Shown here: positions 12,373 through 41,550 of the stretch, in pieces
How positions within the stretch are numbered: position 1 is the first letter of the stretch
How the letters are laid out: every line of letters begins with the position of its first letter
IMG/VR virus record: IMGVR_UViG_3300032955_000004
Location: 1 to 46,519 of that record
From: a virus
Strand: one strand, 5' to 3'
Length of the DNA stretch: 46,519 nt
Translations under genes and position numbers: made by a program
Notes under the pieces: generated by a model
The model's database searches: none
Told to the model about the DNA's origin: nothing
The model's input: the letters and a program-made list of their open reading frames with translations, nothing else

Positions 12373-12379
12373 GGCGATA
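12373..12379 (+). promoter_or_regulatory. GGCGATA late-promoter candidate before portal
   Basis: GGCGATA, seven bases (TCCAAGT), then the GTG start of the portal gene. No Shine-Dalgarno sequence is present. If the heptamer is a -10 element, transcription would begin at the G of GTG, giving a leaderless mRNA for the portal to capsid operon. Confidence 0.55.
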
Positions 12380-12386
12380 TCCAAGT

Positions 12387-14642
12387 GTGCCGAAAAGCTT
12401 CCAGATCAGGCTTCCGGAATCGGAACAAGCCAAGCTGTGCGATCGCATCGAGCAGGACTTTCTCACCGACAAGGCGACCCACCAGAGATGGGCCGAGCGG
12501 TGCCGTTCCTGGATGCAGCGCTGGGAAGCCAGGGTCAATCCGCCGGCGGCCGGCGACGAAGGCAAACCGAATCACACGGTGCCGCTGGTTCAGTGGCAGA
12601 CGATCAACAAAATCGCGCGGGATATGCAAGCCCTGCTGGGAGATGAAGCTGCGATAACTGCACGGGCCACAGGCCCTTCCGACGCGCGCAAGGTTCACAA
12701 GATCGGCTGCTACATGACCTCGCGGGTATTCGACCAGATGGAGATCGTCAACCCGCTGAGCATTTTCGAATTCCGGCGTGTTTTGAACGGTCACTCGGTG
12801 GCATACAGGCCCTGGTATCGGCGGGAATACGACACGCTGCAGCAGGGACGCATCAAGCGGGTGTGCGATTACGAAGGGCCGGGCTTCTTTCCGGAAGAGC
12901 CGGACAACATCATGGTGCCCCCGGAGCGGGGCGTCACCTCGATTCAGGAATTCAGCCATGTGATCCGGCGGGTGCGCTACACGGTGGACGATCTGCAGCG
13001 CGGCGACGGGACGTTGTTTCAGGGAACCAGCGACCCGGAGTTCGTAAGGCAATTGATCGCCTGGGCGAAAACAGGAGACATTGCCAACGACTACACGCTG
13101 GTCGGCATGGATCCGGTCAGAACCGAACGGGAGCGCAGCGAGGGAGTCGACTACGACTACTACGTGCTGGGGCGGCGTGGGATCTGGGTGTGGGAGTGGT
13201 ATGGCGCCTGGCGGCCGTTGAAGAAAAACAAACGCGACGCCGAAATAGACGACCTCGAAAGACGCCTGCCCTACGAGGCCGACTGGGTGATTCGCTATAT
13301 CCCGGGCATGCGGCGAGTGATTGGCTGCCAGGATCTGCTCGAGCTCTACCCCAAAATGCGGAAGAGGCGGCCGTTCGTGGAATCGACGCTGCTGAAGGAT
13401 GGCACCTACAGACCCAAAGGCTTCGGCGCGCTGCTCGAGGACCTCGAGGACGACACCACCAACAACTCGCGCCTGTTCACCGCGGCGGGCGAGTTGTCGG
13501 TATGGCCGGTGATTTTTTTCAAGCCCGGCGGCGGCTTCAACCAGAAAACCATCAAGCTCGAGCCGGGCACCGCGATCCCGACCGAAGATCCGACTTCGGT
13601 GAACGTGGTCAAGATCACTCCGAACCTGGAGTATTCCACGGTGCGCCAGCAGGACCTGCTGGCCATTGCGGAGAGAGTTACCGGGATCACCGATCAATCC
13701 ATGGGGCGGTCGATCGAGAGGCCCAATGCGCCCCGAACCGCGACAGGGCAATTAGCCCTCATCGAGGAGGGGAACATCCGCGCGTACCTCGACAGCACGA
13801 TTCTGCGCGAGGACATGGAGCAGATCATCACCGATATCTGGGAGCTCGACTGCGACCTGGCGCCGCGCACCGAGCCGGGGATCTTCTTCAGGACAACCGA
13901 ACAGCAGGCTAACGGCCTGTTCGACGTGAAGGGCGGCGGTGCCTACATGACCCCGAAGGAATTCGGCGGCAAATACGATTTCCGCCTGAAATTCGCGACG
14001 TCGGTCTACGCCAGGCAAGCCAAGAAACAAGAGCTGCTGGCGTTCTACCAGATCGCCATGCAGAACCCCATGGTGGCCACCAACCCGAAGGCCGCCTGGA
14101 CCTTGCTGAACCGGGTGGCGATCGAATTCGGCATCAACGATTTCGAAACCATCGTGCCCGCCCCGCCGGATCTGGATTCGCCGAAGACGCCCGACCAGGA
14201 ATGGAACGACATGCTGGAGGGCGAGCCCGACGTCCAGGTGAATCCGCAGGACAACGACGACCTGCACATCGTCAAGCACAACGGCCAGATCAACGACGCG
14301 GTGAGTGATCCAGACCGGGACAGCCACGATTCGAAGGCAATCACGCAGATGCAGCAGCACATCCTGAATCACGAGCAGCAGAAGCGCACCAAGGCCTATA
14401 TGCAGGCCCTGACGCAGATGCTGGTCGAACGGATGCAGGCCCAGCAGGGAGGACAACCCGCGCTGCCTCCAGGCCAGCCAGGCCTGCAACCGGGTATGCC
14501 GCCCGGGATGCCGATGGGACAGCCTGGCGCGATGCCCCCGATGGGGCCCGGGATGAATCCCCTGCAGGCAGCAGGCGATATACCGCCGGGACCGCAGCAT
14601 GTGGGAGCTCTCGGCCCGCAAGCGCATGACGGCATGATGTGA
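12387..14642 (+). CDS. Portal protein, 751 aa
   Basis: Size, position after terL and internal sequence fit a large podovirus-type portal, the dodecameric ring through which DNA enters and leaves the head. Characteristic stretches are the N-terminal helical region, the centre LVGMDPVRTERERSEGVDYD, the long-helix and tunnel region around residues 425-500 (QDLLAIAERVTGITDQSMGR, RTATGQLALIEEGNIRAYLD), and a Gln/Pro/Met/Gly-rich C-terminal tail (from about 690) with repeats like PGMPPGMPMGQPG. The GTG at 12387 is the only sensible start and directly follows the GGCGATA motif. It heads the structural operon that ends with the major capsid protein. Confidence 0.85.
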   Translation: MPKSFQIRLPESEQAKLCDRIEQDFLTDKATHQRWAERCRSWMQRWEARVNPPAAGDEGKPNHTVPLVQWQTINKIARDMQALLGDEAAITARATGPSDARKVHKIGCYMTSRVFDQMEIVNPLSIFEFRRVLNGHSVAYRPWYRREYDTLQQGRIKRVCDYEGPGFFPEEPDNIMVPPERGVTSIQEFSHVIRRVRYTVDDLQRGDGTLFQGTSDPEFVRQLIAWAKTGDIANDYTLVGMDPVRTERERSEGVDYDYYVLGRRGIWVWEWYGAWRPLKKNKRDAEIDDLERRLPYEADWVIRYIPGMRRVIGCQDLLELYPKMRKRRPFVESTLLKDGTYRPKGFGALLEDLEDDTTNNSRLFTAAGELSVWPVIFFKPGGGFNQKTIKLEPGTAIPTEDPTSVNVVKITPNLEYSTVRQQDLLAIAERVTGITDQSMGRSIERPNAPRTATGQLALIEEGNIRAYLDSTILREDMEQIITDIWELDCDLAPRTEPGIFFRTTEQQANGLFDVKGGGAYMTPKEFGGKYDFRLKFATSVYARQAKKQELLAFYQIAMQNPMVATNPKAAWTLLNRVAIEFGINDFETIVPAPPDLDSPKTPDQEWNDMLEGEPDVQVNPQDNDDLHIVKHNGQINDAVSDPDRDSHDSKAITQMQQHILNHEQQKRTKAYMQALTQMLVERMQAQQGGQPALPPGQPGLQPGMPPGMPMGQPGAMPPMGPGMNPLQAAGDIPPGPQHVGALGPQAHDGMM

Positions 14643-14878
14643 GCGCAGACCAGACACACATAGCGATCGAGCAACTGCTCGTGAGCGACGGCTACCAGAT
14701 CGTGATGGCGCGCGTCGAAGGCGAGCTCGAGCGCCGGCGAAACGAGCTGGAATCGCCGAAAGGGCCGGAGCAGACCGCCTTCATCCGCGGCCAGATCGCA
14801 TCCCTGCGCACGGTATTGGGTCTCGCAACCATCATGCGCGAGGAAGCCAAGGCCGCCCTGAAAGAGGAAGACGAATGA
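14639..14878 (+). CDS. Small helical protein, 79 aa
   Basis: GTG 14639 overlaps the portal stop by four bases. The product is a predicted long helix or coiled coil (IVMARVEGELERRRNELESP then FIRGQIASLRTVLGL) with an acidic end. Such small proteins between portal and scaffold are common in phages of this kind; function unknown. Confidence 0.65.
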   Translation: MSADQTHIAIEQLLVSDGYQIVMARVEGELERRRNELESPKGPEQTAFIRGQIASLRTVLGLATIMREEAKAALKEEDE

Positions 14879-15018
14879 ACCGCGACCAGAAGAAACAGGC
14901 CGCCGCGCCGCCGGCGAAAGATCCCAAGGTCAAGCTGAAGCTCAAGCTGAAGGGCTCCAAAACGCAGGTGGGCAGCATCATGAGCAAGATGCTCGACCGC
15001 GACCAGGACGGCATGTAA
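14875..15018 (+). CDS. Small lysine-rich protein, 47 aa
   Basis: ATG 14875 overlaps the upstream stop (ATGA). The protein begins MNRDQKKQAAAPPAKDPKVK and continues with alternating Lys-Leu (LKLKLKGSK), then a helix with Met and Asp. It is directly followed by the next ATG. The tight packing and normal codon pattern support a real gene; role unknown. Confidence 0.6.
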   Translation: MNRDQKKQAAAPPAKDPKVKLKLKLKGSKTQVGSIMSKMLDRDQDGM

Positions 15019-15186
15019 ATGCCCTGGCAGTCCCAGGACGTCACCGGCAAAACCAAAAAGGCCAAGTCGCCGAAAGCCAAACGCCAGTGGGTTCACATCG
15101 CGAACCGGCTGCTCGCATCGGGTGAGAGCGAAGCTTCGGCGATAAAGCAAGCGAACGGCGTGATCAAACGCCAGTCGAAATCATGA
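15019..15186 (+). CDS. Small basic helical protein, 55 aa
   Basis: The ATG at 15019 abuts the previous stop. The C-terminal part (RQWVHIANRLLASGESEASA then IKQANGVIKRQ) matches a short helical pattern (W..VAN..L..G.SE..AI..AN) often seen in small phage head-region proteins. The N-terminus is Lys-rich. It overlaps the next gene's ATG by four bases. Confidence 0.6.
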   Translation: MPWQSQDVTGKTKKAKSPKAKRQWVHIANRLLASGESEASAIKQANGVIKRQSKS

Positions 15187-15842
15187 CCGCAATCAAAACC
15201 GTATGTTTCGCGCTGCTCGCGTTGTTCCTCGCGGGAGCGATTCTGCTGGCCCTCACGGTGGCAGCTGCGCACGCAGAGACAGTCCCTTCCTACGCTGTAC
15301 CGGTAGCCAGTTCCGCGGGCAACCCGCTTGCCCCGGGACTACAGGCCAGCATCATCGCCAACACCCAGGCTCAGATTGTGAAGATCAATCAATTCCAGAC
15401 CCAGGTGCTGGCCGGCGCCTGCCTGAATTGGACGGCAACGGCCACCAACGCGCGCAACGCGGGGCAGCCCATCCCGGCCCCACCCTCCCAGCCCGCGCAG
15501 CAGGTACTCAACGTCTCTTCGCCCGATAGCGACGGGACGATCTGGATGTGGGTCTCGAGCGACGGGGTGGTGGGCGCGCCGTGTCCTCCGCTGCCGCCGG
15601 TGGCTCCGCCCGCGGCGCCCAACACTCCGGATATCGGGCAGGTGCTGGTGAGCCCCTGGTATCAATGCCTGGCCGACGACACGATGGCGAATAACGCGGT
15701 GGTGAACATCAGCCCCGCGGGCACCTGGTCTACCGCGGCCGGCACGCAGGGCATCAGCTTCGTGTCCGGAACCAAGCCGCCGGCGGGGCAGTACGCCAAG
15801 ACGCCCGGCGTGATCGGGTGCTGGTACCTGAAGATCCAATGA
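15183..15842 (+). CDS. Exported or membrane-anchored protein, 219 aa
   Basis: A hydrophobic N-terminal segment (TVCFALLALFLAGAILLALT then VAAAHAE) reads as a signal peptide with an A-H-A type cleavage site, or as an anchor. The remainder is Pro/Ala-rich with four cysteines (ACLNW, APCPPL, YQCLAD, IGCWYL), which could form disulfides outside the cytoplasm. No family is recognised. A Sec-type N-terminus in the middle of a phage head operon is unexpected and recurs in four genes further right. It is coupled to its neighbours by four-base overlaps. Confidence 0.7.
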   Translation: MTAIKTVCFALLALFLAGAILLALTVAAAHAETVPSYAVPVASSAGNPLAPGLQASIIANTQAQIVKINQFQTQVLAGACLNWTATATNARNAGQPIPAPPSQPAQQVLNVSSPDSDGTIWMWVSSDGVVGAPCPPLPPVAPPAAPNTPDIGQVLVSPWYQCLADDTMANNAVVNISPAGTWSTAAGTQGISFVSGTKPPAGQYAKTPGVIGCWYLKIQ

Positions 15843-16120
15843 TTCACCGCTGCGGCGCCTGCGGGCTGGAAGCCGCGATCGGCAATCGAAGCCTCTGTGC
15901 CGACTGCCGGGCATTGCTCCAGCGCGTTGTCAACCGCTTGGCATACCGCCGGCGCAAAGGCGAACCGGTAAAGCCGGGCCAGGCCCACCGCGAATTCTGG
16001 AAGTTGTTTCCCCGAACCAAAAACCATGTTGAACAACGATGCCAAGACCACGTTACTCGGTGCGGCCGCCGCTGCCACGCTAGTAGCGAATCTCGATTGG
16101 ACGAAGCTCTTCGCCCATGA
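15839..16120 (+). CDS. Zinc-ribbon protein, 93 aa
   Basis: ATG 15839 overlaps the previous stop. The start MIHRCGACGLEAAIGNRSLC then ADCRALL carries two Cys pairs (CGAC and CADC) of a zinc ribbon, followed by a basic helical segment (NRLAYRRRKGEPVKPGQAHR). The last 32 residues overlap the holin-like gene in another frame and look less constrained; translation there may be real or the gene may have drifted. Confidence 0.55.
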   Translation: MIHRCGACGLEAAIGNRSLCADCRALLQRVVNRLAYRRRKGEPVKPGQAHREFWKLFPRTKNHVEQRCQDHVTRCGRRCHASSESRLDEALRP

Positions 16121-16205
16121 CCCGGGTGAGATCAGCAAAGCCGCCGGCGCCGTAATTGTGACGCTGTTCGGCCTCTTCACCAACAAGCCCGACCCGAAGA
16201 AGTGA
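16026..16205 (+). CDS. Small membrane protein, possible holin, 59 aa
   Basis: The frame from ATG 16026 encodes two short hydrophobic segments, TLLGAAAAATLVANL and AAGAVIVTLFGLF, with a small charged loop (DWTKLFAHDPGE) and a polar Lys-containing end. This size and topology fit a small holin or other phage membrane protein. It overlaps the 3' end of the zinc-ribbon gene and ends in a four-base overlap with the next gene. No lysozyme lies next to it, so holin is only a suggestion. Confidence 0.55.
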   Translation: MLNNDAKTTLLGAAAAATLVANLDWTKLFAHDPGEISKAAGAVIVTLFGLFTNKPDPKK

Positions 16206-16552
16206 CCGCTCCGATCATCGTCGCGGAGCGCTGCCCCTATTGCTCGAAGCCGCGCAGCCCGCGCGATCTGCTCAAGCTCACGGCGTTCACCATCTGCCAC
16301 GACTGCTACCAGCGTCACCTGTTGGCGCTCGACGGGCTCTCCACCGGACGCTACACCGGCAGCTGTTCAGAGTGCGGCCGTTCGGTCGCAGAAATCACCG
16401 CCAGGCAGCGAGACGGCGATAGAGGGGTGCGGATGCATGTCCATTTCGAGAACGGCATTTACCGGCCTATGTGCCTGGAGTGCTCGCGCGCGTACGTGCC
16501 GAAACGGGCCGATCTCTACGGGGACACCGCGTACTGGAGACAGAAAAACTGA
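16202..16552 (+). CDS. Multi-cysteine zinc protein, 116 aa
   Basis: GTG 16202 overlaps the previous stop. Cys pairs occur as CPYCSKP, ICHDCYQ, CSECGRS and a final MCLECSRAY, giving two treble-clef or ribbon-like zinc sites. It may bind nucleic acid, perhaps as an HNH-like relic, but the catalytic His pattern is not evident. It ends next to the ATG of the scaffold-like gene. Confidence 0.65.
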   Translation: MTAPIIVAERCPYCSKPRSPRDLLKLTAFTICHDCYQRHLLALDGLSTGRYTGSCSECGRSVAEITARQRDGDRGVRMHVHFENGIYRPMCLECSRAYVPKRADLYGDTAYWRQKN

Positions 16553-17427
16553 TGGACGAAGTCGAAGTCACCCCTGCGGGTGCACAACCGTCCGACGCGG
16601 GCGCCAAGCCCCAGGGCGGGAAGAACGACGAAAAAGTCCAGCTGACTCGAGCCGAATTCGAGGCGCTGCGACGGGAGAGGGACGAAGCCCGGCAATCGGA
16701 GCGTTACTGGGCGGGAGTGGCGCGGGGACGCCAGGGAGAGCCCGACAACCAGGTCGAAGAGCAGGAAGAGCAGATCGAGACCGCTGATCTGATTCCGGAA
16801 GTCACCGGCGACAGCACGGTGGACGAAGCCATTTTCTCCGACCCTGACAAGTGGACCGACGCGATCGCGCGCGGCCCGCAGGCCATCCAGGCATTCATTC
16901 GCAAGGCCGGCTATGTGACCGCGAAAGAAGCGGCCGACATCGCGGCGAAGGTCGCGCAGCGCACGGTGCAGGTAGAGCGCCAGAAGCTCGGATCGGACGC
17001 CGCCATCGTGGGCGAGTTTCCGGACTTGCGGAACAACGAGTCACCCCTGTTCAAAGCCACCGCGGCGGAACTCAAAAAACTGGTGGCGCTCGACCCCAGC
17101 GCGCGGAATCGTCCGGCGACATTGTATGCGGCCGCCACGGCTGCCAAGGCCAAGCTGGACGCCGCCGAGAAGCGCCAGGAGCGGAACCGCGAGAACCGCG
17201 ACGAGGACGATTTCTACGAGCGCTTCGAGCGCGAGGACGAAACCGAACGGCGCCAGAGGGCCGCGGCCCAGGACGGCTCCCGTACGCGCACCCGGGAAAG
17301 CGCCGACGACGACACCTACCTCGGACCCGAAGCCCGGGCCGTAATCGCCGGCATGGGCATCACGGACGCGGAATTCCAGGCCTCGGCCAGAGAGATCCGC
17401 GGCGCACGTCCCCGGGGGAGGCGCTAA
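16552..17427 (+). CDS. Scaffold-like head-assembly protein, 291 aa
   Basis: The protein is acidic, charged and almost entirely predicted helix, with coiled-coil sections (LTRAEFEALRRERDEARQSE and AKLDAAEKRQERNRENRDED) and a basic end (SAREIRGARPRGRR). It sits between portal and capsid genes, where podoviruses and siphoviruses encode the internal scaffold. There is no protease-like motif. The ATG at 16552 shares its A with the upstream TGA region. Assigned from composition and position only. Confidence 0.6.
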   Translation: MDEVEVTPAGAQPSDAGAKPQGGKNDEKVQLTRAEFEALRRERDEARQSERYWAGVARGRQGEPDNQVEEQEEQIETADLIPEVTGDSTVDEAIFSDPDKWTDAIARGPQAIQAFIRKAGYVTAKEAADIAAKVAQRTVQVERQKLGSDAAIVGEFPDLRNNESPLFKATAAELKKLVALDPSARNRPATLYAAATAAKAKLDAAEKRQERNRENRDEDDFYERFEREDETERRQRAAAQDGSRTRTRESADDDTYLGPEARAVIAGMGITDAEFQASAREIRGARPRGRR

Positions 17428-17699: not shown

Positions 17700-18284
17700 A
17701 TGGCGAAAAAAATCATGAGCGCCGGAGGTGTCGGCGAATCGAAACGCTTCGGCGGAGCGTCGCCCGATGCCGACCGCAATCCCGTGCTCGACCTGCATGT
17801 GGGCGGAATGCTGGTGCGCGACATGCCCCTCGAATCGCAGGCGCGGATTCTCTATCAGCAGACCGACGAAGGCATCGCCGCCAATAACGCGGGCAAGAGC
17901 GAGAACCGCGTTGCGGTCATCGCCGAAGGATTCGATAAAGCCCTCCACCAACGCCGCGACGATCTGAAAGACCGCGGCATGGAGCCCTACGAGGCGCGCG
18001 ATCCGTTGAAGGAAGTCGCCGATGCGCATGCCGTTCCCGGAATGCGCCCGAAGTTCTTGTCGCCGCGGCGCGTGAAGGAAAACGGCGGCACTGGCGATTA
18101 TGTGGTTGTGAAGGAAGCGAACGGAGATCCGGTGCGGGTCAAGGGAATGATCCTGGGCCACATGCCGGAGGAACGGGCGCGAGCAAGGAACCGGCATTAC
18201 CAGGCGAAGTCCAACGCCCTGCTGCAACAGATCACCGAAAGGTATAAGCAGGAAGGCGGGCCCACCGCGGTAGTGGACCAGTAA
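17700..18284 (+). CDS. Hypothetical head-region protein, 194 aa
   Basis: The ATG at 17700 follows GGAGAAGGGG. The sequence has a beta-like centre (LDLHVGGMLVRDMPLESQAR) and a helical, charged second half (AGKSENRVAVIAEGFDKALH). The location before the capsid genes and the adaptor-like composition suggest a head-completion or minor capsid role, but nothing specific is recognisable. It is the last gene before a 122-base structured gap. Confidence 0.55.
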   Translation: MAKKIMSAGGVGESKRFGGASPDADRNPVLDLHVGGMLVRDMPLESQARILYQQTDEGIAANNAGKSENRVAVIAEGFDKALHQRRDDLKDRGMEPYEARDPLKEVADAHAVPGMRPKFLSPRRVKENGGTGDYVVVKEANGDPVRVKGMILGHMPEERARARNRHYQAKSNALLQQITERYKQEGGPTAVVDQ

Positions 18285-18924: not shown

Positions 18925-19854
18925 GTGCAAATCAGAGGACAATTTTCAGACTTCTTTTTCGAGACGATGCTCCCGGCCCTGAACGCCAAGATCTGGCAGA
19001 ACTTCAAGGCCAAGCCGCATCAGTATCAGAAACTGATGCGCGTCGAGACCACCAACCGCTCGATCGAGCAGTACGTGGTGATGGCGGGAGTGGGACTCCC
19101 GACCCTGGTGCAGGAAGGCGCGGACACGCCCACCGACAACTTCGTGCAGGGACCGTATCAAAATTTCAAGCCCGCCAAATACGGGCTCGGAATCGCGGCC
19201 TCGCAGGAGTTGATCGAAGACGACAAGTTCGGCGTGATCTCGCGCCGTTCGGTCGCGCTTTCGAACTCGATTCAACAGTCGCGCGAAATCCAGGCAGCGA
19301 GCATCTATAACAACGCTTTTGACGCGACGGGCTCCTACTACGGGCCCGACGGCGTGGCGCTCTGCTCCTCGTCTCACCCGCTGATCAAGGCCGGCGGCAC
19401 GCAGAACAACCTTCTCAGCGTGCCGGCGGACCTCGATGTGGCATCGCTGGAGCTAGCGCTAACGGATTGGGAAAGCACCAAGACCCACGAAGGGTTCCTG
19501 CAGATGCTTCCTACCCCGCGCCTGCTGGTCGCCAGTGCGAACCGCTGGAACGCTGCGGAAATCCTGAAGAGCCAAATGCGCTCCGATACCGCTAACAACA
19601 CCACCAACGCTTTCAAGTACACCGAGACCGGCGGCGTGATCGAGCCGATCGTCTGGCCGTACCTGACCGACATCGACTGCTGGTTCCTGGTGGCTCCTCC
19701 CGAAGAAACCGAAATGATCTGGCTCGACCGGAAGGCGCCCTACACCAAAAGCGACTACACCGAGAAGACCGAGACCGGCTACGTGTACATGCGGTACCGA
19801 GCCACCTACGGTTTTTATGGGTGGCGCGGTTTGTACGGCACCCCGGGGGCGTGA
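18925..19854 (+). CDS. Major capsid protein, 309 aa
   Basis: The sequence fits the HK97-fold capsid proteins of the Mu gpT-like or related class: an N-terminal region with FFETMLPALNAKIWQ, an early IEQYVVMAGVGLPTLVQEGA, a spine-helix region (GIAASQELIEDDKFGVISRR then SVALSNSIQQSREIQAASIY), the loop with SSSHPLIKAGGTQNN, and a C-terminal domain with the Asn-rich AATM-like stretch and WLDRKAPYTKSDYTEKTETG. Start is GTG 18925, two bases after the previous stop. An intrinsic terminator follows 31 bases after the stop, matching the pattern of strong capsid expression. Confidence 0.85.
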   Translation: MQIRGQFSDFFFETMLPALNAKIWQNFKAKPHQYQKLMRVETTNRSIEQYVVMAGVGLPTLVQEGADTPTDNFVQGPYQNFKPAKYGLGIAASQELIEDDKFGVISRRSVALSNSIQQSREIQAASIYNNAFDATGSYYGPDGVALCSSSHPLIKAGGTQNNLLSVPADLDVASLELALTDWESTKTHEGFLQMLPTPRLLVASANRWNAAEILKSQMRSDTANNTTNAFKYTETGGVIEPIVWPYLTDIDCWFLVAPPEETEMIWLDRKAPYTKSDYTEKTETGYVYMRYRATYGFYGWRGLYGTPGA

Positions 19855-22375: not shown

Positions 22376-22382
22376 GGCGATA
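22376..22382 (+). promoter_or_regulatory. GGCGATA late-promoter candidate before fibre operon
   Basis: GGCGATA, AGCGGGT, GTG. The GTG begins a 57-residue ORF in a 46-base gap with no Shine-Dalgarno sequence. A TAAA occurs ten bases upstream of the heptamer, closer than the roughly 15 bases typical of FliA-class -35 elements. Confidence 0.55.
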
Positions 22383-28259: not shown

Positions 28260-28266
28260 GGCGATA
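28260..28266 (+). promoter_or_regulatory. GGCGATA late-promoter candidate before large fibre
   Basis: GGCGATA, eight bases (TACCGCGC), GTG. It begins five bases after the stop at 28255. There is no Shine-Dalgarno match before the GTG. Confidence 0.55.
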
Positions 28267-28274: not shown

Positions 28275-30953
28275 GTGAAGACACTTCGGATTTTCGGCAC
28301 GGGACTGCTGCTGGCGTTTGCTCTGGGAGCCCAGACCGCGCAGTTCCCGGGGGCCCTGGCCACCGACAGCCAATTTCAGGTAGCCGTGAATAACTGCGCC
28401 ACCACCCTGACCGCTTTCGTAAACGCGAGCAACACTTCGTTCAGCGTGGCGAGCGCCGCCTGTTTCGAGCCGAACATGCTCTTGACCCTGGATGGGGGAG
28501 AAATCGTGCGGGTATGCGGCGTGAACGTTCCGGCCAATACCTTCCAGGTAGGATACGCAAGCTGCCCGAACACAGATGGCAGGGGGTTCGACGGCACCAT
28601 AGCGGCGACCCACAATGCGGGAGCCATCATCCAGGCCAATATCGATGCCTGGCACCACAACAGTGTCAAGGCCGAAATCGAAGCCATCGAAAGCGCTCTC
28701 GGGGTGAACATGTCGAAGGCCTCGCCTTTGACCACCAAGGGGGACCTCTACGGTTATTCGACAGTCCCGGCGCGTTTACCCGCGGGCACCGACGGGTATG
28801 TGCTGACGGCGGATTCGACGCAACCACTGGGCATCCGCTGGGGAGCCGCGGCATCGACCGGGGCCAACAGCACGCTCTCGAATTTGACGAGCCCGACCGC
28901 AATCAATCAAAGCTTATTGCCTTCGGGCTTACAGAACCTGGGCAGCTCCAGCGCACCCTGGAACCAGGTTTTCGCGGGACTACTCACCCTGGTCAGCCCG
29001 GGAACCAGCGGGAGCATCACGCTCGATCCGGCCGGCGACATCGCGATGAATGCCGCTGCCGGCGCGAATATCTATCTGGCGGATCCCAACGGGGCTGCGT
29101 TCGTCGCCAACCGGTTGAGCGGGGTGGCCTCGACCCTGAACCCGTCCTTGGGCTCGTTCTCCGACAAAGGCCTGCACAATTCCGCTGTTTTCACGACCAA
29201 TAACGCGCCCCTGGTGGACGCCACGGGAGACGGGTACGTGAGTGCGCTTACCGGAGCGATGGAAGGACGGGTGCCGTTTGCGACAACCGGAACGTGGGCG
29301 TTGTCCTCGACGGCTCTGACCGTATCCTCGCACGCCGGAATCTTCGTGAACGACTCGGTGAGTGGCGCCAATATCGGGCCGGGGGGCTACAACACGGTGG
29401 CCAGCTGCGGAACCAGCACGCCGGGCGCGGCCTGCACCTCGAATTCGATCGTGCTGGCGAGCAATACACCCGGCACGGGCAGCGGGACCGCCTTGTCATT
29501 CGGAGCCAGCGACACGGGCAACGCGGCCATCAGTGCCATGTGCGAAGGCGGAGGCGGAGGCGAGGGATGTATCGGTTTAAACCTGCAAGTCCGCGCGAAT
29601 ACCATCGGGAATCTCGAAATCTTTGAGGGCACGGTGCAGAACTGGCAGAGCTGGCCGGTGGTCACCGCGGCGGCAACCTGGAGCGGCAGCACCGCGGCGA
29701 TCAACGTGCCGGCGTATAACAACCTGATCGTCGGCGAGCCGGTCGCGGGAACCGGGATCCCTTCGAACACCACGGTTTCCTCTTGCGGGGCAACCGCCAC
29801 GGGTGCGTCTTGCACCTCGGCCGCGGTAGTGCTCTCCGCACCGACCACCGGCGGAACGGGCGCCACCCTGACCTTCGGGGCGGTCTATGGACCGACCTAC
29901 AACGCCAATTTGTTTGTCGGCCAATTCGCCATCAACTCGCTGGGACCAAATGCGCCGGACCAGGCGTATGGCTTCCTGATGCTAGATAGCCTCTGGGCCG
30001 CGCCGCTGACGGCAAACTCGGTGATGTTCCACTCGGTCAAAGCGGATCCGCGCATGTGGTCGATGACATACAACGTTCAGTCGGAAGACGGCGCGGCGAC
30101 CATCGGAGAATGGATGGGCGCGGTGAGCGGGCCGATCGGGGCAGCGCTGGGGAATTACACTTTCGCCGGCTTGCCCAGTGCCGCGACCAACAATGGCTTG
30201 GCGGTGTGGTGCGAGAACTGCAGCGTGGGGAACCCGGTGGCGGCCGGGGGCTCGGGAACAATCGCGATCTCGAATGGCAGCCAATGGAATGGGGTAGCCC
30301 CGACTGGCCTGAGTTCGGCATATTGGTGTACCAGATGCACCAACAACAGCCCGGTAACGGACGGTGGTAGCGGTGCGATTGTGGTGAACGACGGCGCCGG
30401 ACGCTGGAGCGGGAACGCCGGTAACCAATACTCGCAAGCGTTTCAGCAGCGGGGATTCGACCCGACCAGCGCAAATGGACATGATTTCTTCAGCGAGTTT
30501 CAAAATGGCGCGGGCGGCCACGTATTCCAGACGCAAACCAGCGCTGCCGGTGCCGGAAGCTTCGTATTCGAAACTCCCTTCACCTCGGCCGGGGCCACCA
30601 ACGTCTTGACTATCGGCCAGGGCACCACTCCTGGATCCACCCAGATCACCGGGGGAAGTAACTGCGCCGCCCACAACTGCGGAATGATTTTGTATTCGAA
30701 CGATGGGGGACTGGTATTGGAATCGGTAAACGGCGGTGGTGGCACGAACCAGTCCATCTACTTCAACGTCGGCGGTGGCGCCGCCGCGAACGTCGCCATG
30801 CTCATCAACTCCAGCTCGATTCTGTTCAACCCGTTCGGAGCGACGTTTACGTTGATTTGGGATAGCCCGTTATCTACCAGCGGGGTGGGACACCCGGTCT
30901 GCCGCAGGGACACAGACGGAGCATTGTACGAATCTACGGGAGGGACTTGCTAA
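28275..30953 (+). CDS. Large tail fibre with signal sequence and cysteine-paired repeats, 892 aa
   Basis: GTG 28275 gives the N-terminus MKTLRIFGTGLLLAFALGAQ, a signal peptide. A fibre region follows (SPLTTKGDLYGYSTVPARLP, AGTDGYVLTADSTQPLGIRW). Two modules of about 65 residues each contain SCG-x8-AC (near 377 and 503), and two 33-residue repeats contain WCENC and WCTRC (near 649 and 683). The C-terminus ends with VCRRDTDGALYESTGGTC. The many spaced cysteines suggest disulfides. Likely a receptor-binding fibre that passes through the Sec pathway; this is inference. Confidence 0.7.
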   Translation: MKTLRIFGTGLLLAFALGAQTAQFPGALATDSQFQVAVNNCATTLTAFVNASNTSFSVASAACFEPNMLLTLDGGEIVRVCGVNVPANTFQVGYASCPNTDGRGFDGTIAATHNAGAIIQANIDAWHHNSVKAEIEAIESALGVNMSKASPLTTKGDLYGYSTVPARLPAGTDGYVLTADSTQPLGIRWGAAASTGANSTLSNLTSPTAINQSLLPSGLQNLGSSSAPWNQVFAGLLTLVSPGTSGSITLDPAGDIAMNAAAGANIYLADPNGAAFVANRLSGVASTLNPSLGSFSDKGLHNSAVFTTNNAPLVDATGDGYVSALTGAMEGRVPFATTGTWALSSTALTVSSHAGIFVNDSVSGANIGPGGYNTVASCGTSTPGAACTSNSIVLASNTPGTGSGTALSFGASDTGNAAISAMCEGGGGGEGCIGLNLQVRANTIGNLEIFEGTVQNWQSWPVVTAAATWSGSTAAINVPAYNNLIVGEPVAGTGIPSNTTVSSCGATATGASCTSAAVVLSAPTTGGTGATLTFGAVYGPTYNANLFVGQFAINSLGPNAPDQAYGFLMLDSLWAAPLTANSVMFHSVKADPRMWSMTYNVQSEDGAATIGEWMGAVSGPIGAALGNYTFAGLPSAATNNGLAVWCENCSVGNPVAAGGSGTIAISNGSQWNGVAPTGLSSAYWCTRCTNNSPVTDGGSGAIVVNDGAGRWSGNAGNQYSQAFQQRGFDPTSANGHDFFSEFQNGAGGHVFQTQTSAAGAGSFVFETPFTSAGATNVLTIGQGTTPGSTQITGGSNCAAHNCGMILYSNDGGLVLESVNGGGGTNQSIYFNVGGGAAANVAMLINSSSILFNPFGATFTLIWDSPLSTSGVGHPVCRRDTDGALYESTGGTC

Positions 30954-32133: not shown

Positions 32134-32140
32134 GGCGATA
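32134..32140 (+). promoter_or_regulatory. GGCGATA late-promoter candidate before tail protein
   Basis: GGCGATA, seven bases (GACGGTT), GTG. It lies in a 36-base divergent gap with the leftward HTH gene. No Shine-Dalgarno sequence. Confidence 0.55.
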
Positions 32141-34757: not shown

Positions 34758-34764
34758 GGCGATA
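34758..34764 (+). promoter_or_regulatory. GGCGATA late-promoter candidate before stand-alone domain gene
   Basis: GGCGATA, eight bases (GGCCGGGT), GTG. A second GGCGATA overlaps the first codons of the gene itself (34775-34781). Confidence 0.55.
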
Positions 34765-34772: not shown

Positions 34773-35117
34773 GTGGCGATACAAAAAGTCTTCGACTATA
34801 AGGAAGTCACCCTCGAGTACCGTTCGAACGGGCCGGCGACGTTCACTTTGAACACGGACATGCCCGGGGGCTCGATGGCCAGCCGCGTTGTGGCCACCCT
34901 TCCCTCGAGTGGAGGCATCGGCGCCAATCGCACGCAGACCATTGCGCTCGATGGCGTGCAGGGCACCATGTACCAGGTTCTGATCACGCCCGGCGCCGCC
35001 ACCCAATTCATCCCTCTCGCGGGAAAGCTCATGCTGCGGCCGATCGGCGTATACCTCGACGGATCGCTGACGCCGGCCGAACAGTGGATCACCCAGCCCA
35101 TCGCACCGGGGGTCTGA
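34773..35117 (+). CDS. Stand-alone tail beta-sandwich domain, 114 aa
   Basis: The protein (MAIQKVFDYKEVTLEYRSNG, PATFTLNTDMPGGSMASRVV, TQTIALDGVQGTMYQVLITP, LMLRPIGVYLDGS) aligns by eye with the C-terminal domain of the preceding tail gene and with the next gene. It is probably a small tail or fibre-attachment subunit. GTG start after a GGCGATA motif. Confidence 0.6.
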   Translation: MAIQKVFDYKEVTLEYRSNGPATFTLNTDMPGGSMASRVVATLPSSGGIGANRTQTIALDGVQGTMYQVLITPGAATQFIPLAGKLMLRPIGVYLDGSLTPAEQWITQPIAPGV

Positions 35118-35118
35118 C

Positions 35119-35655
35119 GTGGCCTCCGAAAAGTTAAAGCTTTACTCGAAGATCGAACTCGAGCTGATTTCGAACGGCAACGCCACGTTCACCTTGTTGA
35201 CGGATCTGCCTGGCGCGGGCATGGTGCAGCGGGTACAGACGAACGTGGGCCCTTCCCGGTGGACCGGCACCTTCGTCAGGGGCACCTGGACGTCGCGCCT
35301 GCCCTATAACACGCAGGGCCACCTGGTGCAGGCCATCCTGGCGCCCGCGTCGAACGTGCAGATTACGCTCTACCGGGCGCGGATCTGGGCGCGAGAATTA
35401 CCCCGCGGCGACTGGGAGTGGTTTCAGCTGCCGGTGATCGACACCCCGGTGGAGTTCGGTCCAGTGAACCTGCCGATTCCGCCGACCTCGGAAGAGTGGC
35501 GGGCGGCGAACCTCGTGATTCCACCGACGGCGGAAGAATGGCGCCCGGTGAACCTACCGATCCCTCCGACGAATGAGGAATGGAGGGCCGCGGAGCTTCC
35601 GATCAAGCCCACGGCTCCCGTTCCAGATTGGCTGAGTCTCGAGGTGGACAAGTGA
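35119..35655 (+). CDS. Tail beta-sandwich domain with 14-residue repeats, 178 aa
   Basis: Residues 1-100 repeat the domain of the previous gene (LYSKIELELISNGNATFTLL, TDLPGAGMVQRVQTNVG, ILAPASNVQITLYRARIWAR). The C-terminal part has three 14-residue units (NLPIPPTSEEWRAA, NLVIPPTAEEWRPV, NLPIPPTNEEWRAA) plus a degenerate fourth (ELPIKPTAPVPDWL). GTG start one base after the previous stop. The Pro/Trp repeats may act as a stalk or as docking sites. Confidence 0.6.
   Translation: MASEKLKLYSKIELELISNGNATFTLLTDLPGAGMVQRVQTNVGPSRWTGTFVRGTWTSRLPYNTQGHLVQAILAPASNVQITLYRARIWARELPRGDWEWFQLPVIDTPVEFGPVNLPIPPTSEEWRAANLVIPPTAEEWRPVNLPIPPTNEEWRAAELPIKPTAPVPDWLSLEVDK
35467..35592 (+). repeat. Three 42-base in-frame tandem repeats
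   Basis: The DNA encodes the three 14-residue units of the preceding entry; codons have diverged (for example CCGATTCCGCCG against CCGATCCCTCCG), so the repeats are kept for the protein sequence. Confidence 0.75.
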
Positions 35656-35996
35656 TTTCGGACCTTCCGCCGATACAGGGCATTTCACCATTTCTGCTCA
35701 CTGCGCTGAACGAACGGCTGCGCACGCTATCCACCCAGCTGGACGCAGCCCAGCGGGATCTGGCGGCCGCACAATCGCAGATCCAGAAGCTTCAGAACCA
35801 GAACGCGCCGGTGACCAGCGTGAACGGCAAGACGGGAGCGGTAACTCTGAGCGCAACGGACGTGAACGCCGCGCCGGACACGCCTGCAGGGACAAGCCAG
35901 CCCTTCATGAGCGGAGACAAATTGATCTCGGGCAAGCATGTGTCAGAGATCGTGCTCGACGACTATGGCCGGATCGTGAACCTGGGCTGGAGTTAG
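35652..35996 (+). CDS. Short tail fibre protein, 114 aa
   Basis: GTG 35652 overlaps the previous stop. A coiled coil (LNERLRTLSTQLDAAQRDLA, AAQSQIQKLQNQN) is followed by the classical tail-fibre sequence VTSVNGKTGAVTLSATDVNA, and it ends with ISGKHVSEIVLDDYGRIVNL. It is typical of a trimeric fibre segment. No signal sequence. Confidence 0.7.
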   Translation: MISDLPPIQGISPFLLTALNERLRTLSTQLDAAQRDLAAAQSQIQKLQNQNAPVTSVNGKTGAVTLSATDVNAAPDTPAGTSQPFMSGDKLISGKHVSEIVLDDYGRIVNLGWS

Positions 35997-36003: not shown

Positions 36004-36010
36004 GGCGATA
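36004..36010 (+). promoter_or_regulatory. GGCGATA late-promoter candidate before acetyltransferase gene
   Basis: GGCGATA, eight bases (GAACAGGC), GTG start of the GNAT gene. No Shine-Dalgarno sequence. Confidence 0.55.
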
Positions 36011-37122: not shown

Positions 37123-37132
37123 GGGGGAAAAG

Positions 37133-39007
37133 ATGGGAGCACTTGGCGGTTTAGCACAAGGATTACTCGCGGGGCGCGAACTGCGGATGCGGATGCAGAA
37201 AGCCATGGACGAGCACCAGGCATTGCAGCAGGAGATCGCGCAGAGGCAGCAGGCTATGGCGATGCAGGCTCATGATGCCGCCCTCAAGGTTCAGAACGAC
37301 AACCTGGACATGCTGCTGCGCGGCGGCAAACCTGTGACGAACGGAATGGTAGAGGACATGATGTCCTGGGAGCCCGGCAAAAGCCAGAATAGCCAGGGTC
37401 CGTCTTCCCAATCTCAGTCAGAGAATGCGTCTCAGGAAAGCCGGCTTCCCGTGCAGCAGGCTGGGATCAACGGCTATTCGACTTCTCCGCTCGATCAGTT
37501 GCGAGCGCAGGCCGGCGGTGGCGATCTTCCGCTCGACACGTCGCGTCTCGGGGGGCAGCAGCCTTCCGCGAGTGGAGGGGTGCCTCAGAGTTTTTCCTAC
37601 CTCCGGAAAGCCAAGGATGTGACGACAATCCCGGGACTGAACGGGGAGAAGTGGCAATACGAGATGCCAAGTCCGGAGGAGCAGATCGCGCGCCAGGCGC
37701 AGATGAAGGAAGCGGCGCAACTGCGCGAAAAACTGGGAGCTGCGAAAGCGGAGAGTGCCGCGGAGTTATTCCTGCGTAATCTGAAGGGGCAGAAAGCGCC
37801 CGACGACGTGGCCCAATTTTACGGCCTCGATCCAGCCAATCCGTACAACAAGTTCTATCCCGCCGAGCTCCAAAAGATGCGGAGTGATATGGCTGAAGCT
37901 CGGGCCAAGGGTATGGTGAAACTGGAGCCGGGAACCCTGTTGGACGACATAACCGGAGTGACCGGTGGCGCGCCAGTCAGCGGAGCAGTTCCGGGCGCAC
38001 CAATCGCCACCGGAGCAACCGGCCCATCAACTCCGGGCCAGGCAACGGCAGGAGCCCGCGTGGTGGCCACCGGAGGGCCGCCGCTGCCTACCGACGACTT
38101 CGGGAAATACTTCCTGCCGGCATTTACCGCCAAGACGCTGAACAAGCCTTTGGCCGAGGTAACGGCCCAGGACATGAAATCGCTCGATCCGGACCTGGTG
38201 AAAAAAGCGTTCGGGGAATTCAGCGCCGCCAAGGAATCGCCGGATACGGTGGCCATGCGAAAGCTCGCCATGGCTACCCAGTCGTTGCACGAGACCATGC
38301 TGAAGCTGCAAGCGGGGCAGATGCCCACGAGGGACGACGCCAAAGCAGCGGCGCAGATCGTGATCAACCATCAACTCTCGCCCCAGCAGGCCGCCACCAT
38401 GTACGGTGGATTCGGCACCCAGGGGCAGGCCTTCAAGCGGATGATGATGGGCGAAATCACCAAGATCGATCCGCAGTTCAACTTCGAGGAAGCGGAGTCG
38501 GAATACCAGCTCGCCAAGAGCCCGCAATTCCAGCAGACGGTGCGCTACATGGACTCGGTGCAGGAGTCGATCCCATTGGTGATCCAGAGAGCCCAGCAAC
38601 TGGCTAACGGGAACGTGCGCAGCATCAACTCCCTGCTGAACGCCGGCAAAAACCAGTTCAACAACATCGACCTGAAACGCTTCCAGACGGATCGATTGTT
38701 GGTGGCCGATGAGATAGCCAAGATCCTGCAAGGTGGCGGCACGGGAAGCGCCACCAGCGACGCCAAGCTGAACCAGGCCGGCGAGATCCTGAAGGCTTCC
38801 GACAGTCCGCAAGCAATCGCAGCCGGCCTCGGGGATGTGCAGCAATTGATCGGCTACCGGCGCAAGGCACTGACGCGGGGGACGTATCTGGAGCGCACCC
38901 AACTCCAGGCCGCGGGTGGTTTGACGGTGACCTACCAGGGCCACGATTACACGTTCAAAGATCAGGCCAGCATGGCCCAGTTCAAAAAAGACCAGGGGAT
39001 TCAGTAG
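37133..39007 (+). CDS. Large internal virion (ejection) protein, 624 aa
   Basis: GAGGGGGAAAAG precedes ATG 37133. The protein begins MGALGGLAQGLLAGRELRMR and is helical and Gln/Ala-rich with long coiled-coil sections (QKAMDEHQALQQEIAQRQQA, KLGAAKAESAAELFLRNLKG). Its size, composition and place just before another large protein fit the internal head proteins that podoviruses eject with DNA. No lytic transglycosylase motif is evident. The C-terminus has a compact segment (TRGTYLERTQLQAAGG then VTYQGHDYTFKD). Confidence 0.6.
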   Translation: MGALGGLAQGLLAGRELRMRMQKAMDEHQALQQEIAQRQQAMAMQAHDAALKVQNDNLDMLLRGGKPVTNGMVEDMMSWEPGKSQNSQGPSSQSQSENASQESRLPVQQAGINGYSTSPLDQLRAQAGGGDLPLDTSRLGGQQPSASGGVPQSFSYLRKAKDVTTIPGLNGEKWQYEMPSPEEQIARQAQMKEAAQLREKLGAAKAESAAELFLRNLKGQKAPDDVAQFYGLDPANPYNKFYPAELQKMRSDMAEARAKGMVKLEPGTLLDDITGVTGGAPVSGAVPGAPIATGATGPSTPGQATAGARVVATGGPPLPTDDFGKYFLPAFTAKTLNKPLAEVTAQDMKSLDPDLVKKAFGEFSAAKESPDTVAMRKLAMATQSLHETMLKLQAGQMPTRDDAKAAAQIVINHQLSPQQAATMYGGFGTQGQAFKRMMMGEITKIDPQFNFEEAESEYQLAKSPQFQQTVRYMDSVQESIPLVIQRAQQLANGNVRSINSLLNAGKNQFNNIDLKRFQTDRLLVADEIAKILQGGGTGSATSDAKLNQAGEILKASDSPQAIAAGLGDVQQLIGYRRKALTRGTYLERTQLQAAGGLTVTYQGHDYTFKDQASMAQFKKDQGIQ

Positions 39008-41071
39008 ATGCCCGATCCAGCTCAGGCTGCAGTGGTTCCAATGGCAACTCCGGATGCGCAAGCACTGGCGGCGAAGTATGGGGCGACTGTAGCTCCAGCA
39101 GCCGCAACTCCCGACGCCCAGGCACTCGCCGCAAAGTATGGCGCGACGGTGACGCCCTCGCAGCCCACCGGTCCCAATGTCTCTCCGGACGCTTCCGACG
39201 ACGATGTCATTCGCTCCGCTGGCTTCGATCCGGCGCTGGTGAAGCAGTCCGCGCGTTACCAGGCCATGGTCAAACAGGACGGCTCGATCGGGCAGCACCT
39301 GAAAAACGATCCCTCCGGCGGATTCAAGATCGAGGGCTGGACGAATCGCAACCAGTTTACCGGCGCACTCTCCGATGTGGAGCATGGGCTGGAACTTCCC
39401 CTTGCGGGTCTGGCGCAACTGGCGCGGCATGGCCTCAACAAGCTGGGCCTGGTTTCCGATGCAGACATGGCCTATAGCGACATGATGGCCCGCATACACA
39501 ACCAGGACTACTTACAGAACGTGCGCGAGGGAAAAGCCAGTCCCACGGTGATCCAATTGGGGAGCATGCTTTTCCCGATGCCTGGTGGAAACACGGTGAA
39601 GAGCCTCGGTGGCGGCATCATCGAAGGTGCTCTCCGTGGCACTGTGGCAGGCGTCTCCAATCCGGTTCTGAGCGGGCCGCCCTCGGAGTTCGGAGCGGAA
39701 AAGCTGAAACAGGGCGCAGAGGGCGCCGTGATCGGCGGCCTGTTGGGCACGTTGGGAAAAACCACCCGCGCCGCGAAACAATTCACCGAGACTTCTTTGC
39801 CCGAAACGGCGGTAGCCGAGACCGCCGGCAAGCTGCAATCGACCATGGAGAACACTCCCTGGGGACACCTCATCGACATTCAACAACTGGCGGAAGAAGG
39901 AGGGGAGCGCGCCGGCGCCGCGCGTCAGGTGTTGGAACAGATTCAGCATGCCGACACACCCCTGCGCATCGCCCAGGCGAGCGCAAACGTGCAGCGGGTC
40001 AGGGCGGAGCAGCTCTCCGATCAGCTCTACCATGACGTCGAAGAAACCATCCGCAAGTACAACGTCGGCAATGCGCCCCTGGCAAGCACCGCCACCGCAT
40101 TGCGAACCGCCGAAGCCAACGCGGCCCTGGGCCTGAAAGATCCCGGGCTGAATTCGACGCTCAAGGAAGTACGGCGTATTATCACCCCGGAAAGTCGGCC
40201 GGCCCCGGGGCCGAGCGGCCTGGTGGATGCCGGTGGAAGACCGATTCAAGCGTCGCGGCCGCCAGCCGGCCCTCCCTCCGCGCCGTATGACGAGGCCCGC
40301 AAACTTTCCTCGCAAATCGAGGAAATCATCCGCAATAAGAAAACCGCAGAAAATGCCCTGGTGGGCGATCGGGCTCTGCCGTTATTGCAGCGGCTGAAAA
40401 ATGCCATCGATCAGGATCTCTATGCCTTCACCCAAAAACAGAACATTCCGGAGTTGCGGGCGGCGGCGAAGATGGCGGACGATTTCTACCGCGATGCAGT
40501 AGTTCCGTACAAGGACATCAACATTGCGCGGCAGGTTTCGAACGATGAGACCGACCGGATCTTCCAGACCTTCCTCCAGAAAGGTGGCCGCGATCGCGCG
40601 CAAAAGTTCTACAACGCGCTTGATCCCAAAGGGCGAGCGGCGGTGCAGTACCAACTCGTGGCGGACGCGATGAATAAAGCCACCGATCCGGTGAAGGGTT
40701 TTAACTCGGGTAAATTCGTGCGGGCCATGGATGGACTGGGCGATGCTTACGGCGTATTTTTCGAGGGGAGCGACAAAATGGCCGTGGATGGCATGCGCAA
40801 TTTGGTTTTACATGCGGCGAAAGTAGAGGCGAACCCGGCCGGAGCATTCGGGCCGACAAAAGGCTTGGCGATTACGGCGCTGCCGCGTTCCGACAAAGTT
40901 TTGAGTTACATAATGCAGCAGCCTTTCGGCCGCAGGTTTCTGTATGCAGCCAGCTCGTTGAAACCCGGAACGCCAGCCATGCAAAAGGTGTTGGGACAGG
41001 CGGAGGCGGCGGCAGCCAGGTGGGCGGTCACGTCTACCAGCGGCGAGCAACAACCATCGCCGCGGCCTTGA
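39008..41071 (+). CDS. Large internal virion protein with N-terminal repeat, 687 aa
   Basis: ATG 39008 follows the previous stop. Residues about 13-50 contain a 20-residue repeat (ATPDAQALAAKYGATVAP and ATPDAQALAAKYGATVTP). Then comes a mixed region with Gly-rich membrane-seeking stretches (GGGIIEGALRGTVAGVS, AVIGGLLGTLGKTTRAAK) and long helices (EEGGERAGAARQVLEQIQHA, NAALGLKDPGLNSTLKEVRR). Such amphipathic Gly-rich segments suit an ejection protein that inserts in the host envelope. It is the last gene of the long tail block. Confidence 0.6.
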   Translation: MPDPAQAAVVPMATPDAQALAAKYGATVAPAAATPDAQALAAKYGATVTPSQPTGPNVSPDASDDDVIRSAGFDPALVKQSARYQAMVKQDGSIGQHLKNDPSGGFKIEGWTNRNQFTGALSDVEHGLELPLAGLAQLARHGLNKLGLVSDADMAYSDMMARIHNQDYLQNVREGKASPTVIQLGSMLFPMPGGNTVKSLGGGIIEGALRGTVAGVSNPVLSGPPSEFGAEKLKQGAEGAVIGGLLGTLGKTTRAAKQFTETSLPETAVAETAGKLQSTMENTPWGHLIDIQQLAEEGGERAGAARQVLEQIQHADTPLRIAQASANVQRVRAEQLSDQLYHDVEETIRKYNVGNAPLASTATALRTAEANAALGLKDPGLNSTLKEVRRIITPESRPAPGPSGLVDAGGRPIQASRPPAGPPSAPYDEARKLSSQIEEIIRNKKTAENALVGDRALPLLQRLKNAIDQDLYAFTQKQNIPELRAAAKMADDFYRDAVVPYKDINIARQVSNDETDRIFQTFLQKGGRDRAQKFYNALDPKGRAAVQYQLVADAMNKATDPVKGFNSGKFVRAMDGLGDAYGVFFEGSDKMAVDGMRNLVLHAAKVEANPAGAFGPTKGLAITALPRSDKVLSYIMQQPFGRRFLYAASSLKPGTPAMQKVLGQAEAAAARWAVTSTSGEQQPSPRP

Positions 41072-41228
41072 TCACAAAATTGAGAACATCCTGTTTGGCC
41101 TGAGCCACTTCCTCCTCGGGCGTCAGGACTGGCGGCTGATTTGACAGGCGCAGCCGCGTTCTGACGGCCGAGAACACGCACCGCGCAAAGAGGAGCGGGC
41201 TTCGGAAGATCTCGCGCAGGAGTTCCAC
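41034..41228 (-). CDS. Small leftward hypothetical protein, 64 aa
   Basis: A GTG at 41228 starts a helical protein (MELLREIFRSPLLFARCVFS then AVRTRLRLSNQPPVLTPEEE) with a hydrophobic C-terminal helix (VLNFVIKAAAMVVARRW). It is convergent with, and overlaps by 38 bases, the end of the ejection gene. AGGGG lies 14 bases upstream, too far for a good ribosome site. Possibly real, like the two other reverse-strand genes in the late region. Otherwise 41072-41309 shows no gene. Confidence 0.45.
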   Translation of the reverse strand: MELLREIFRSPLLFARCVFSAVRTRLRLSNQPPVLTPEEEVAQAKQDVLNFVIKAAAMVVARRW

Positions 41229-41309
41229 GCCCCGATACTACCCCTGATCGCCCTCGAAAGAAATCCCCAAAAGGCCCTAAAAGTACCGTGACGGCCATGG
41301 GTATCTGCT

Positions 41310-41316
41310 GGCGATA
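41310..41316 (+). promoter_or_regulatory. GGCGATA promoter candidate before the phosphatase/holin module
   Basis: GGCGATA, then AACCGGGCAGAA, then ATG 41329 (12 bases). With a +1 seven to eight bases downstream the mRNA would have a leader of four to five bases. Confidence 0.5.
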
Positions 41317-41328
41317 AACCGGGCAGAA

Positions 41329-41550
41329 ATGGTCACCGTCGCGATTCACCTCAAACACTGTGTGGAGTGCGGTTCCCCGGGCCTCTACCGGCTCTCGGAA
41401 ATCGAAGCTCTGGTGGGGACGGGAAGGCTGTACCTGAAGGGCACGTCGCAGGAACGATACGTGGATTGCCGCGACCGGGCGGAGGCGGATTTACTGGCGC
41501 TGAACCTGAATCTGATGGACGGAGTGCAGGCGAGAATATGCGGCGGGTAA
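41329..41550 (+). CDS. Small Cys-containing protein, 73 aa
   Basis: MVTVAIHLKHCVECGSPGLY has a CVECG knuckle; DCRDRAEAD and ARICGG give further cysteines, so a small zinc-stabilised beta fold is likely. It is the first gene after the GGCGATA copy and overlaps the phosphatase gene by 13 bases. Function unknown. Confidence 0.6.
   Translation: MVTVAIHLKHCVECGSPGLYRLSEIEALVGTGRLYLKGTSQERYVDCRDRAEADLLALNLNLMDGVQARICGG

Follow-up and report, generated by a model that had tools for sequence, protein, structure and literature searches.

The putative late genes of the window and the GGCGATA sites

The window is the whole of a soil phage record from IMG/VR (IMGVR_UViG_3300032955_000004; 46,519 nucleotides [nt]). 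We analyzed the heptamer GGCGATA, which stands 7 or 8 bases before several GTG start codons of the window and which a first-pass annotation had proposed as the -10 element of leaderless late promoters. The gene order on the plus strand is two tandem sigma-70 genes (sig1 and sig2), large terminase, portal-like gene, major capsid protein, and structural genes:

8480..9046, plus strand: sig1, two-domain sigma-70 protein with region 2 and region 4 and no region 3 (Pfam Sigma70_r2 and r4); presumed GTG start
9043..9573, plus strand: sig2, second tandem sigma-70 protein with a FliA-like region 2 and a weak region 4; no homologue found in relatives
9574..11310, plus strand: large terminase (PHROG terminase match; orthologues), adjoining the sigma genes and not preceded by GGCGATA
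12387..14642, plus strand: portal-like gene (751 amino acids [aa]) with a proposed leaderless GTG start; orthologues aligned from residue 1
18925..19854, plus strand: major capsid protein (PHROG major head), a marker for finding relatives

The size of the 12387..14642 product and its place after the terminase suggest that it is the portal protein. The GGCGATA sites directly upstream of genes are the following:

12373..12379, plus strand: GGCGATA-N7-GTG 12387, putative promoter of the portal-like gene; same junction in the relatives G010, G017, G018, G032, L001, L002, and G009
22376..22382, plus strand: GGCGATA-N7-GTG 22390, putative promoter of a 57-aa gene (end 22563) and the following genes; relatives of the 57-aa gene occur in G009 and G010
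28260..28266, plus strand: GGCGATA-N8-GTG 28275, putative promoter of an 892-aa gene, from the motif position
32134..32140, plus strand: GGCGATA-N7-GTG 32148, putative promoter of an 866-aa virion-protein-like gene; the G010 orthologue aligns over 1-866
34758..34764, plus strand: GGCGATA-N8-GTG 34773, putative promoter of a 114-aa gene whose orthologues in four phages align from residue 1
36004..36010, plus strand: GGCGATA-N8-GTG 36019, putative promoter of a GNAT-like gene; motif at this junction in the sig1 phages compared
41310..41316, plus strand: GGCGATA-N12-ATG 41329, putatively the same promoter with a leader of ~4 nt, from the motif position

The GGCGATA-N7/8-GTG sites are real. GTG comes after 7, 7, 8, 7, 8, and 8 bases, respectively, at the copies 12373, 22376, 28260, 32134, 34758, and 36004, and the copy at 41310 lies 12 bases before ATG 41329, all as first annotated. 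The GTG starts at 12387, 32148, 34773, and 36019 are supported by orthologues whose alignments begin at residue 1; for the 22390 gene, the supporting orthologues are partial. In total, the window contains 17 copies, 14 of them on the plus strand. Seven plus-strand copies had not been listed before (2149, 11336, 14574, 15138, 16415, 34775, and 45695); the copy at 34775 lies within the coding sequence of the 34773 gene (GTGGCGATA), and that at 11336 is plainly coding.

These counts were compared with shuffled sequences. Both strands together gave a shuffle mean of 5.7 and a maximum of 14 (17 observed), and in 400 dinucleotide shuffles the plus strand gave a maximum of 9 (14 observed). The arrangement GGCGATA-N7/8-GTG, present six times in the window, occurred not at all in 372 of these 400 shuffles and once in 28. 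Thus, the over-representation directly upstream of starts that the first-pass annotation had suggested checking was found, and it extends to the sig1-carrying relatives. N7/8-GTG follows GGCGATA in 6 of 14 copies, a fraction that ties for the highest with GCGGCAA among the 1361 heptamers with at least 8 plus-strand copies. When the sigma-encoding relatives were pooled, GGCGATA ranked first by count, and without the window in this set it shared the first rank. Single-base variants nearly always lost the association with GTG; the main exception, GGCGATT, represents mostly one repeated intragenic site.

The motif, the sigma factor and the -35 element in relatives

Relatives were gathered using the terminase, portal-like, capsid, sigma, and GNAT proteins as queries. 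The motif-bearing relatives have sig1 orthologues. On the coding strand, GGCGATA-N7/8-GTG was found 21 times in nine sig1 phages or fragments, and once in four phages with distant sigma factors; the 20 relatives in which no sigma was hit (395 kilobases) had none. The same division was seen at orthologous junctions. GGCGATA was present at the GNAT gene junction in 6/6 sig1 phages versus 0/5 relatives without a sig1 hit (p = 0.002), at the portal-like gene junction in 8/9 versus 0/10 (p = 0.0001), and at the MTYG gene junction in 5/7 versus 0/13 (p = 0.001). The status "without sigma" is firm for the near-full-length G002, G006, G020, G022, and G030 and weaker for short contigs, because some records are fragments. 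Four phages with very distant sigma factors (G024, G034, G035, and G036) showed neither GGCGATA nor another promoter motif at the compared junctions. The first-pass annotation had named relatives that keep the genes and lack GGCGATA as evidence against its proposal. Such relatives exist, but mostly among those without sig1 or with a very distant sigma factor. These comparisons support the view that GGCGATA tracks sig1, being kept with the factor and missing without it.

Both sigma proteins exceed the cut-off of TIGR02937 (sigma-70 superfamily, 42.9 bits), with 69.8 bits for sig1 and 55.9 for sig2. Neither reaches that of TIGR02479 (FliA/WhiG sigma family, 189.6 bits), the scores being 67.3 and 45.1. 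The best curated matches of sig1 are FliA and WhiG, far below their cut-offs. Its region 2 aligns with FliA, and region 3 is absent in both the sequence alignment and the AlphaFold2 model (predicted local distance difference test score 79, predicted template modeling score 0.45, with uncertain relative placement of the domains). The model has helices at 10-101 and 113-179, with a short linker between region 2 and region 4, and a Foldseek search with it returned WhiG, FliA, and extracytoplasmic function (ECF) sigma factors. Thus, the early suggestion of a FliA/WhiG-class likeness was borne out, sig1 and sig2 being nearest to this class. Of the two phage sigma proteins that the first-pass annotation wished to see tested, sig1 tracks the motif, and sig2 is specific to the window. 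A cognate role of sig2 is not supported: none of the motif-bearing relatives has a homologue of it, and the second sigma protein of G017 looks unrelated. In both phages, a second sigma-like gene lies right after sig1 (window 9043-9573; G017, oriented contig, 29685-30215), with a FliA-like region 2 in the window and an ECF-like one in G017.

Analysis of the -35 region was based on all 87 coding-strand GGCGATA sites, unselected, from 13 sigma-encoding records. TTAAG started exactly at -21 in 8/87 sites (0.02 expected), and TAAG was at -20 in 12/87 (0.08 expected), so that the arrangement is TTAAG-N16-GGCGATA with the spacing fixed at 16. The carriers are G007, G017, G032, and G038; L001 and L002 have GTAAG or GTAAT, and G018, whose sig1 is a 100% match to that of G007, has one such site. 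No -35 was present at the GGCGATA sites of the window, G009, and G010, and a search of the window for a generic -35 also found none. The first-pass annotation, which could find no conserved -35, is therefore right for the window; several relatives do have one. Scans of IMG/VR with the pattern TTAAGCCT-N13-GGCGATA detected 37 stretches, four of them in G032 and at most one per record elsewhere, and revealed no further regulon. In the upstream regions of G009 near 6190, 10784, 19687, and 21191, a GAAGGCAGGCCAGGAGGCCCGCCCCA-like element is repeated before several genes.

According to the alignment, the region-4 recognition helix is FliA-like (S/A-R-x-S-Q-x-H) in G007, G017, G032, and G038. It reads QAQACRLH in the window and SWVCRLH, AWVCRLH, or SWVSQIH in the remaining sig1 phages. 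When gene-proximal sites were counted mechanically, a -35 was found at 11/19 sites of phages with the FliA-like helix versus 1/18 sites of the others (p = 0.001). This is suggestive of a link between the presence of a -35 and the recognition helix.

Transcription start and the reading as late promoters

A pyrimidine (T or C) stands directly before GTG in 20/22 N7/N8-GTG sites (46% expected, p = 1.4e-5). G occupies this position in none of the 22, although G precedes 38% of all GTGs. If the -10 element is placed as in the published sigma-28 consensus, we calculate that the G of GTG falls at +1 with N7 and at +2 with N8. At the portal junctions of L001, G017, and G032, Y-GTG is kept at the expected +1, although the true start codon, an ATG, lies 7-10 nt downstream in a different frame. 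Therefore, GTG seems to be partly an initiator sequence, and short leaders occur. The median anti-Shine-Dalgarno (anti-SD) duplex was -2.8 kcal/mol for 21 motif genes versus -6.9 for 60 other genes (p = 7e-5). The lack of an SD sequence at motif genes, as first proposed, thus holds as a tendency but not as a rule. Transcripts starting on the G of GTG would be leaderless, and this start gains independent support from the preceding pyrimidine, the spacing, and the weak SD pairing. The spacing and the -1 pyrimidine fit the start originally placed on this G; several sites depart from it by leaving leaders of 2-10 nt, and two sites are intragenic.

Our preferred reading, with a probability of roughly 0.78, is that GGCGATA serves as the -10 element of late promoters, which the host core RNA polymerase reads with sig1, giving leaderless or short-leadered mRNAs. 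What the sequences themselves show is that the motif is present and enriched, that it is conserved along with sig1, and that relatives have a -35 at a fixed spacing. sig1 would join the host core RNA polymerase and recognize GGCGATA as -10. In several relatives the full promoter would be TTAAG-N16-GGCGATA; in the window, the -10 would stand alone, its -35 being unrecognizable. Transcription would begin 7-8 bases past GGCGATA on a purine preceded by a pyrimidine. Since the +1 purine in the window is usually the G of GTG, late mRNAs would open with the start codon or a leader of a few nucleotides. sig1 would be made first and would then switch on the late modules; early synthesis is feasible because it is encoded just upstream of the terminase, in a unit without a GGCGATA promoter. 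From the sequences we infer that sig1 binds GGCGATA, where exactly +1 lies, that translation is leaderless, and that the timing is late. Co-occurrence of the motif with sig1, the -35 of the relatives, and the FliA/WhiG-like sigma proteins support both parts of the first-pass proposal, the -10 element and the phage-specified form of polymerase.

Several observations weigh against this reading. The junction of the 34773 gene has no GGCGATA at the spacing of the window in the sig1 phages G007, G009, G010, and G032, and the window, itself a sig1 phage, has none at its MTYG gene junction. The co-occurrence tests are not fully independent because the phages share kinship. The link between -35 and helix is not clean, because L001 and L002 combine a W-type helix with TAA(G/T) at -20 in three sites. 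In 38% of the motif genes, the anti-SD duplex still reaches at least -4 kcal/mol. Finally, GGCGATA differs at its second base from the sigma-28 -10 element GCCGATAA.

The same promoter could start transcription a few bases elsewhere and produce mRNAs with ordinary short leaders. Start selection can drift by 1-3 bases, and short leaders are clear at 41310, L001 3297, and G010 35760. We nevertheless consider this unlikely as the general case, since the C or T found before GTG in 20 of the 22 sites, followed by G, is the usual initiator of a -1 pyrimidine and a +1 purine, and even a 3-base shift leaves no room for an SD sequence. A speculative extension, which is somewhat easier to entertain, is that the late regulon is leaderless on purpose via promoter distance. 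One -10 element would then both time transcription and select SD-independent translation, and intragenic copies would lead to nested in-frame products.

Alternatively, a FliA/WhiG-type sigma factor of the host might read GGCGATA, with the phage sigma doing something else. The motif resembles the sigma-28 -10, and the two Acidobacteriota metagenome-assembled genomes (MAGs) searched have many sigma-70 genes, some FliA-sized. However, members of the same viral group that lack sig1, among them a prophage in a Terriglobia contig, have retained the genes but not the motif, and the spacing (one base longer) and the second base differ from sigma-28. A host factor is therefore disfavored as the reader, and we regard it as improbable. 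Even less credible is a translation or RNA-level signal, such as an unusual ribosome-binding or regulator site. It would suit the position of GGCGATA, mostly 7-12 nt before the start and thus near SD distance, where a good SD sequence is lacking. It leaves unexplained the -35-like element at a single fixed upstream distance, some copies lie 17-65 nt before a start or before a gene-less hairpin, GGCGATA has no complementarity to the anti-SD core, and the motif tracks a sigma gene. Chance can be dismissed: GGCGAT is a common Gly-Asp codon pair in GC-rich phage DNA, GGCGATC and GGCGATG are common, and the copies at 11336 and 34775 are coding, but no shuffle reached even two of the six sites, which refutes chance for this set, any base change nearly abolishes the GTG association, and orthologous junctions are conserved.

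The promoters proposed here were compared with known systems. The sigma-28 consensus is TAAAGTTT-n11-GCCGATAA (PMC2859248). GGCGATA is one base away from GCCGATA, TAAG resembles TAAA, and the phage sigma is nearest to FliA/WhiG. In contrast, the spacing is one base longer (TAAG-N16 versus TAAA-N15); in place of TAAA with 15 bases to the -10, relatives have TAAG with 16 bases, and the window has no counterpart. GCCGATAA itself has 0 copies on the plus strand of the window. Unlike its sigma-28 counterparts, the window sigma lacks region 3 and would serve phage late genes, not flagella or sporulation.

We also considered FliA residue D81 as the cause of the C-to-G change in the -10. This was rejected: G007, G009, and sig2 retain D, the window clade has another residue there, and GGCGATA is common to all of them.

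Phage sigma factors with their own late promoters are already known. In phiEco32 (gp36) and 7-11 (gp47), a phage sigma redirects host RNA polymerase to late promoters (PMC8948821, PMC4331800). This clade has a single-element form, tAATGTAtA, with the start 6-8 base pairs (bp) downstream, and a bipartite form, GTAAtg-(16)-aCTA, and the absence of a -35 is tied to region 4 (PMC8948821, PMC4331800). The window group is similar in its phage-encoded sigma-70 protein, in the shared promoter element upstream of structural genes, and in having both single-element and 16-base-spaced bipartite forms. It differs in that phages and hosts are unrelated, the sequences are other ones, the sigma is of the FliA/WhiG kind, and the element is so near the start codon that leaderless or almost leaderless mRNA is expected. 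The points that set the group apart are the FliA/WhiG-like two-domain sigma, GGCGATA, and the placement of this element on the start codon. ECF sigma factors share the two-domain architecture (region 2, short linker, region 4, no region 3); unlike them, sig1 has a region 2 nearest to FliA/WhiG, and the putative promoter resembles the sigma-28 type.

In leaderless genes, a -10 box lies about 10-12 bp upstream of the start and serves as their mark (Zheng et al. 2011, PMC3160421), and all three Acidobacteria genomes surveyed have them (mean 13.3%, range 9.7-19.4%; PMC3160421). The phage sites resemble these genes: the -10 element lies 7-8 bases before the start codon, a distance that fits a +1 at this codon, and the SD is weak. 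Acidobacteria are one of the phyla that have such genes. Unlike in those genes, the -10 would be read by a phage sigma rather than sigma-70, and GTG is the usual start.

Further sites and hosts

Four further plus-strand sites are the following:

14574..14580, plus strand: GGCGATA upstream of the 14639 gene and within the portal-like gene at its 3' end; conserved in relatives and probably an internal promoter
16415..16421, plus strand: GGCGATA within gene 16202-16552, with the in-frame ATG 16433 following after 11 nt; conserved in relatives and probably an internal promoter
18093..18099, plus strand: GGCGATT-N8-GTG within gene 17700-18284 and upstream of the capsid gene; conserved at the nucleotide level and a candidate variant site
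45695..45701, plus strand: GGCGATA with a strong hairpin and a T run ~30-70 nt downstream (fold z-score -4.55); candidate short terminated RNA

At the 14574 site, GGCGATATACC is kept in L001, G009, and G038, with TAAG at -20 added in L001 and G038. The 16415 arrangement also occurs in L001, G009, G010, G038, and G032, and the G032 copy has a perfect TTAAGCCT -35 within the coding sequence. This promoter-like element (16415-16433), present in six phages, may yield a separate C-terminal protein. At 18093-18110, GGCGATTA followed by N7-8 and GTGAAG is conserved at the nucleotide level in six sig1 phages (G007, G009, G010, G017, G038, and the window), whereas most relatives without sig1 have other synonymous codons there. 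TTAAG lies 15 bases before this block in G007, G010, G017, and G038. At 45695-45770 of the window and 3213-3280 of L001, GGCGATA is accompanied by a -35-like GTAGT or GTAAT, with a strong GC hairpin within ~70 nt; the product of these two candidate promoters could be a short terminated RNA.

The hosts of this uncultured phage group appear, by kinship, to be Acidobacteriota. Two relatives fall in Acidobacteriota MAGs. The contig of one of the two, L080 (L080 / G039:C86), also carries nirB, glmM, and other chromosomal genes, which makes it a prophage in a Terriglobia genome; therefore, the viral group is temperate at least in part. L080 has no sig1, so the assignment of a host to the window rests on kinship. 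Named phage collections held no near DNA match to the window and only two sig1 matches, both weak and partial. We found no work on phage gene control in Acidobacteriota. The group offers a testable sigma-promoter pair and a late regulon in which promoter placement would be tied to leaderless translation. The relatives differ in whether they have the sigma and whether they have the -35, and this natural series makes sigma-promoter co-evolution directly testable. Elsewhere in the window, at 35500-35655, the reading frame 35119-35655 and the overlapping 35580-35996 bear repeated "IPPTxEEW"-like peptide units.

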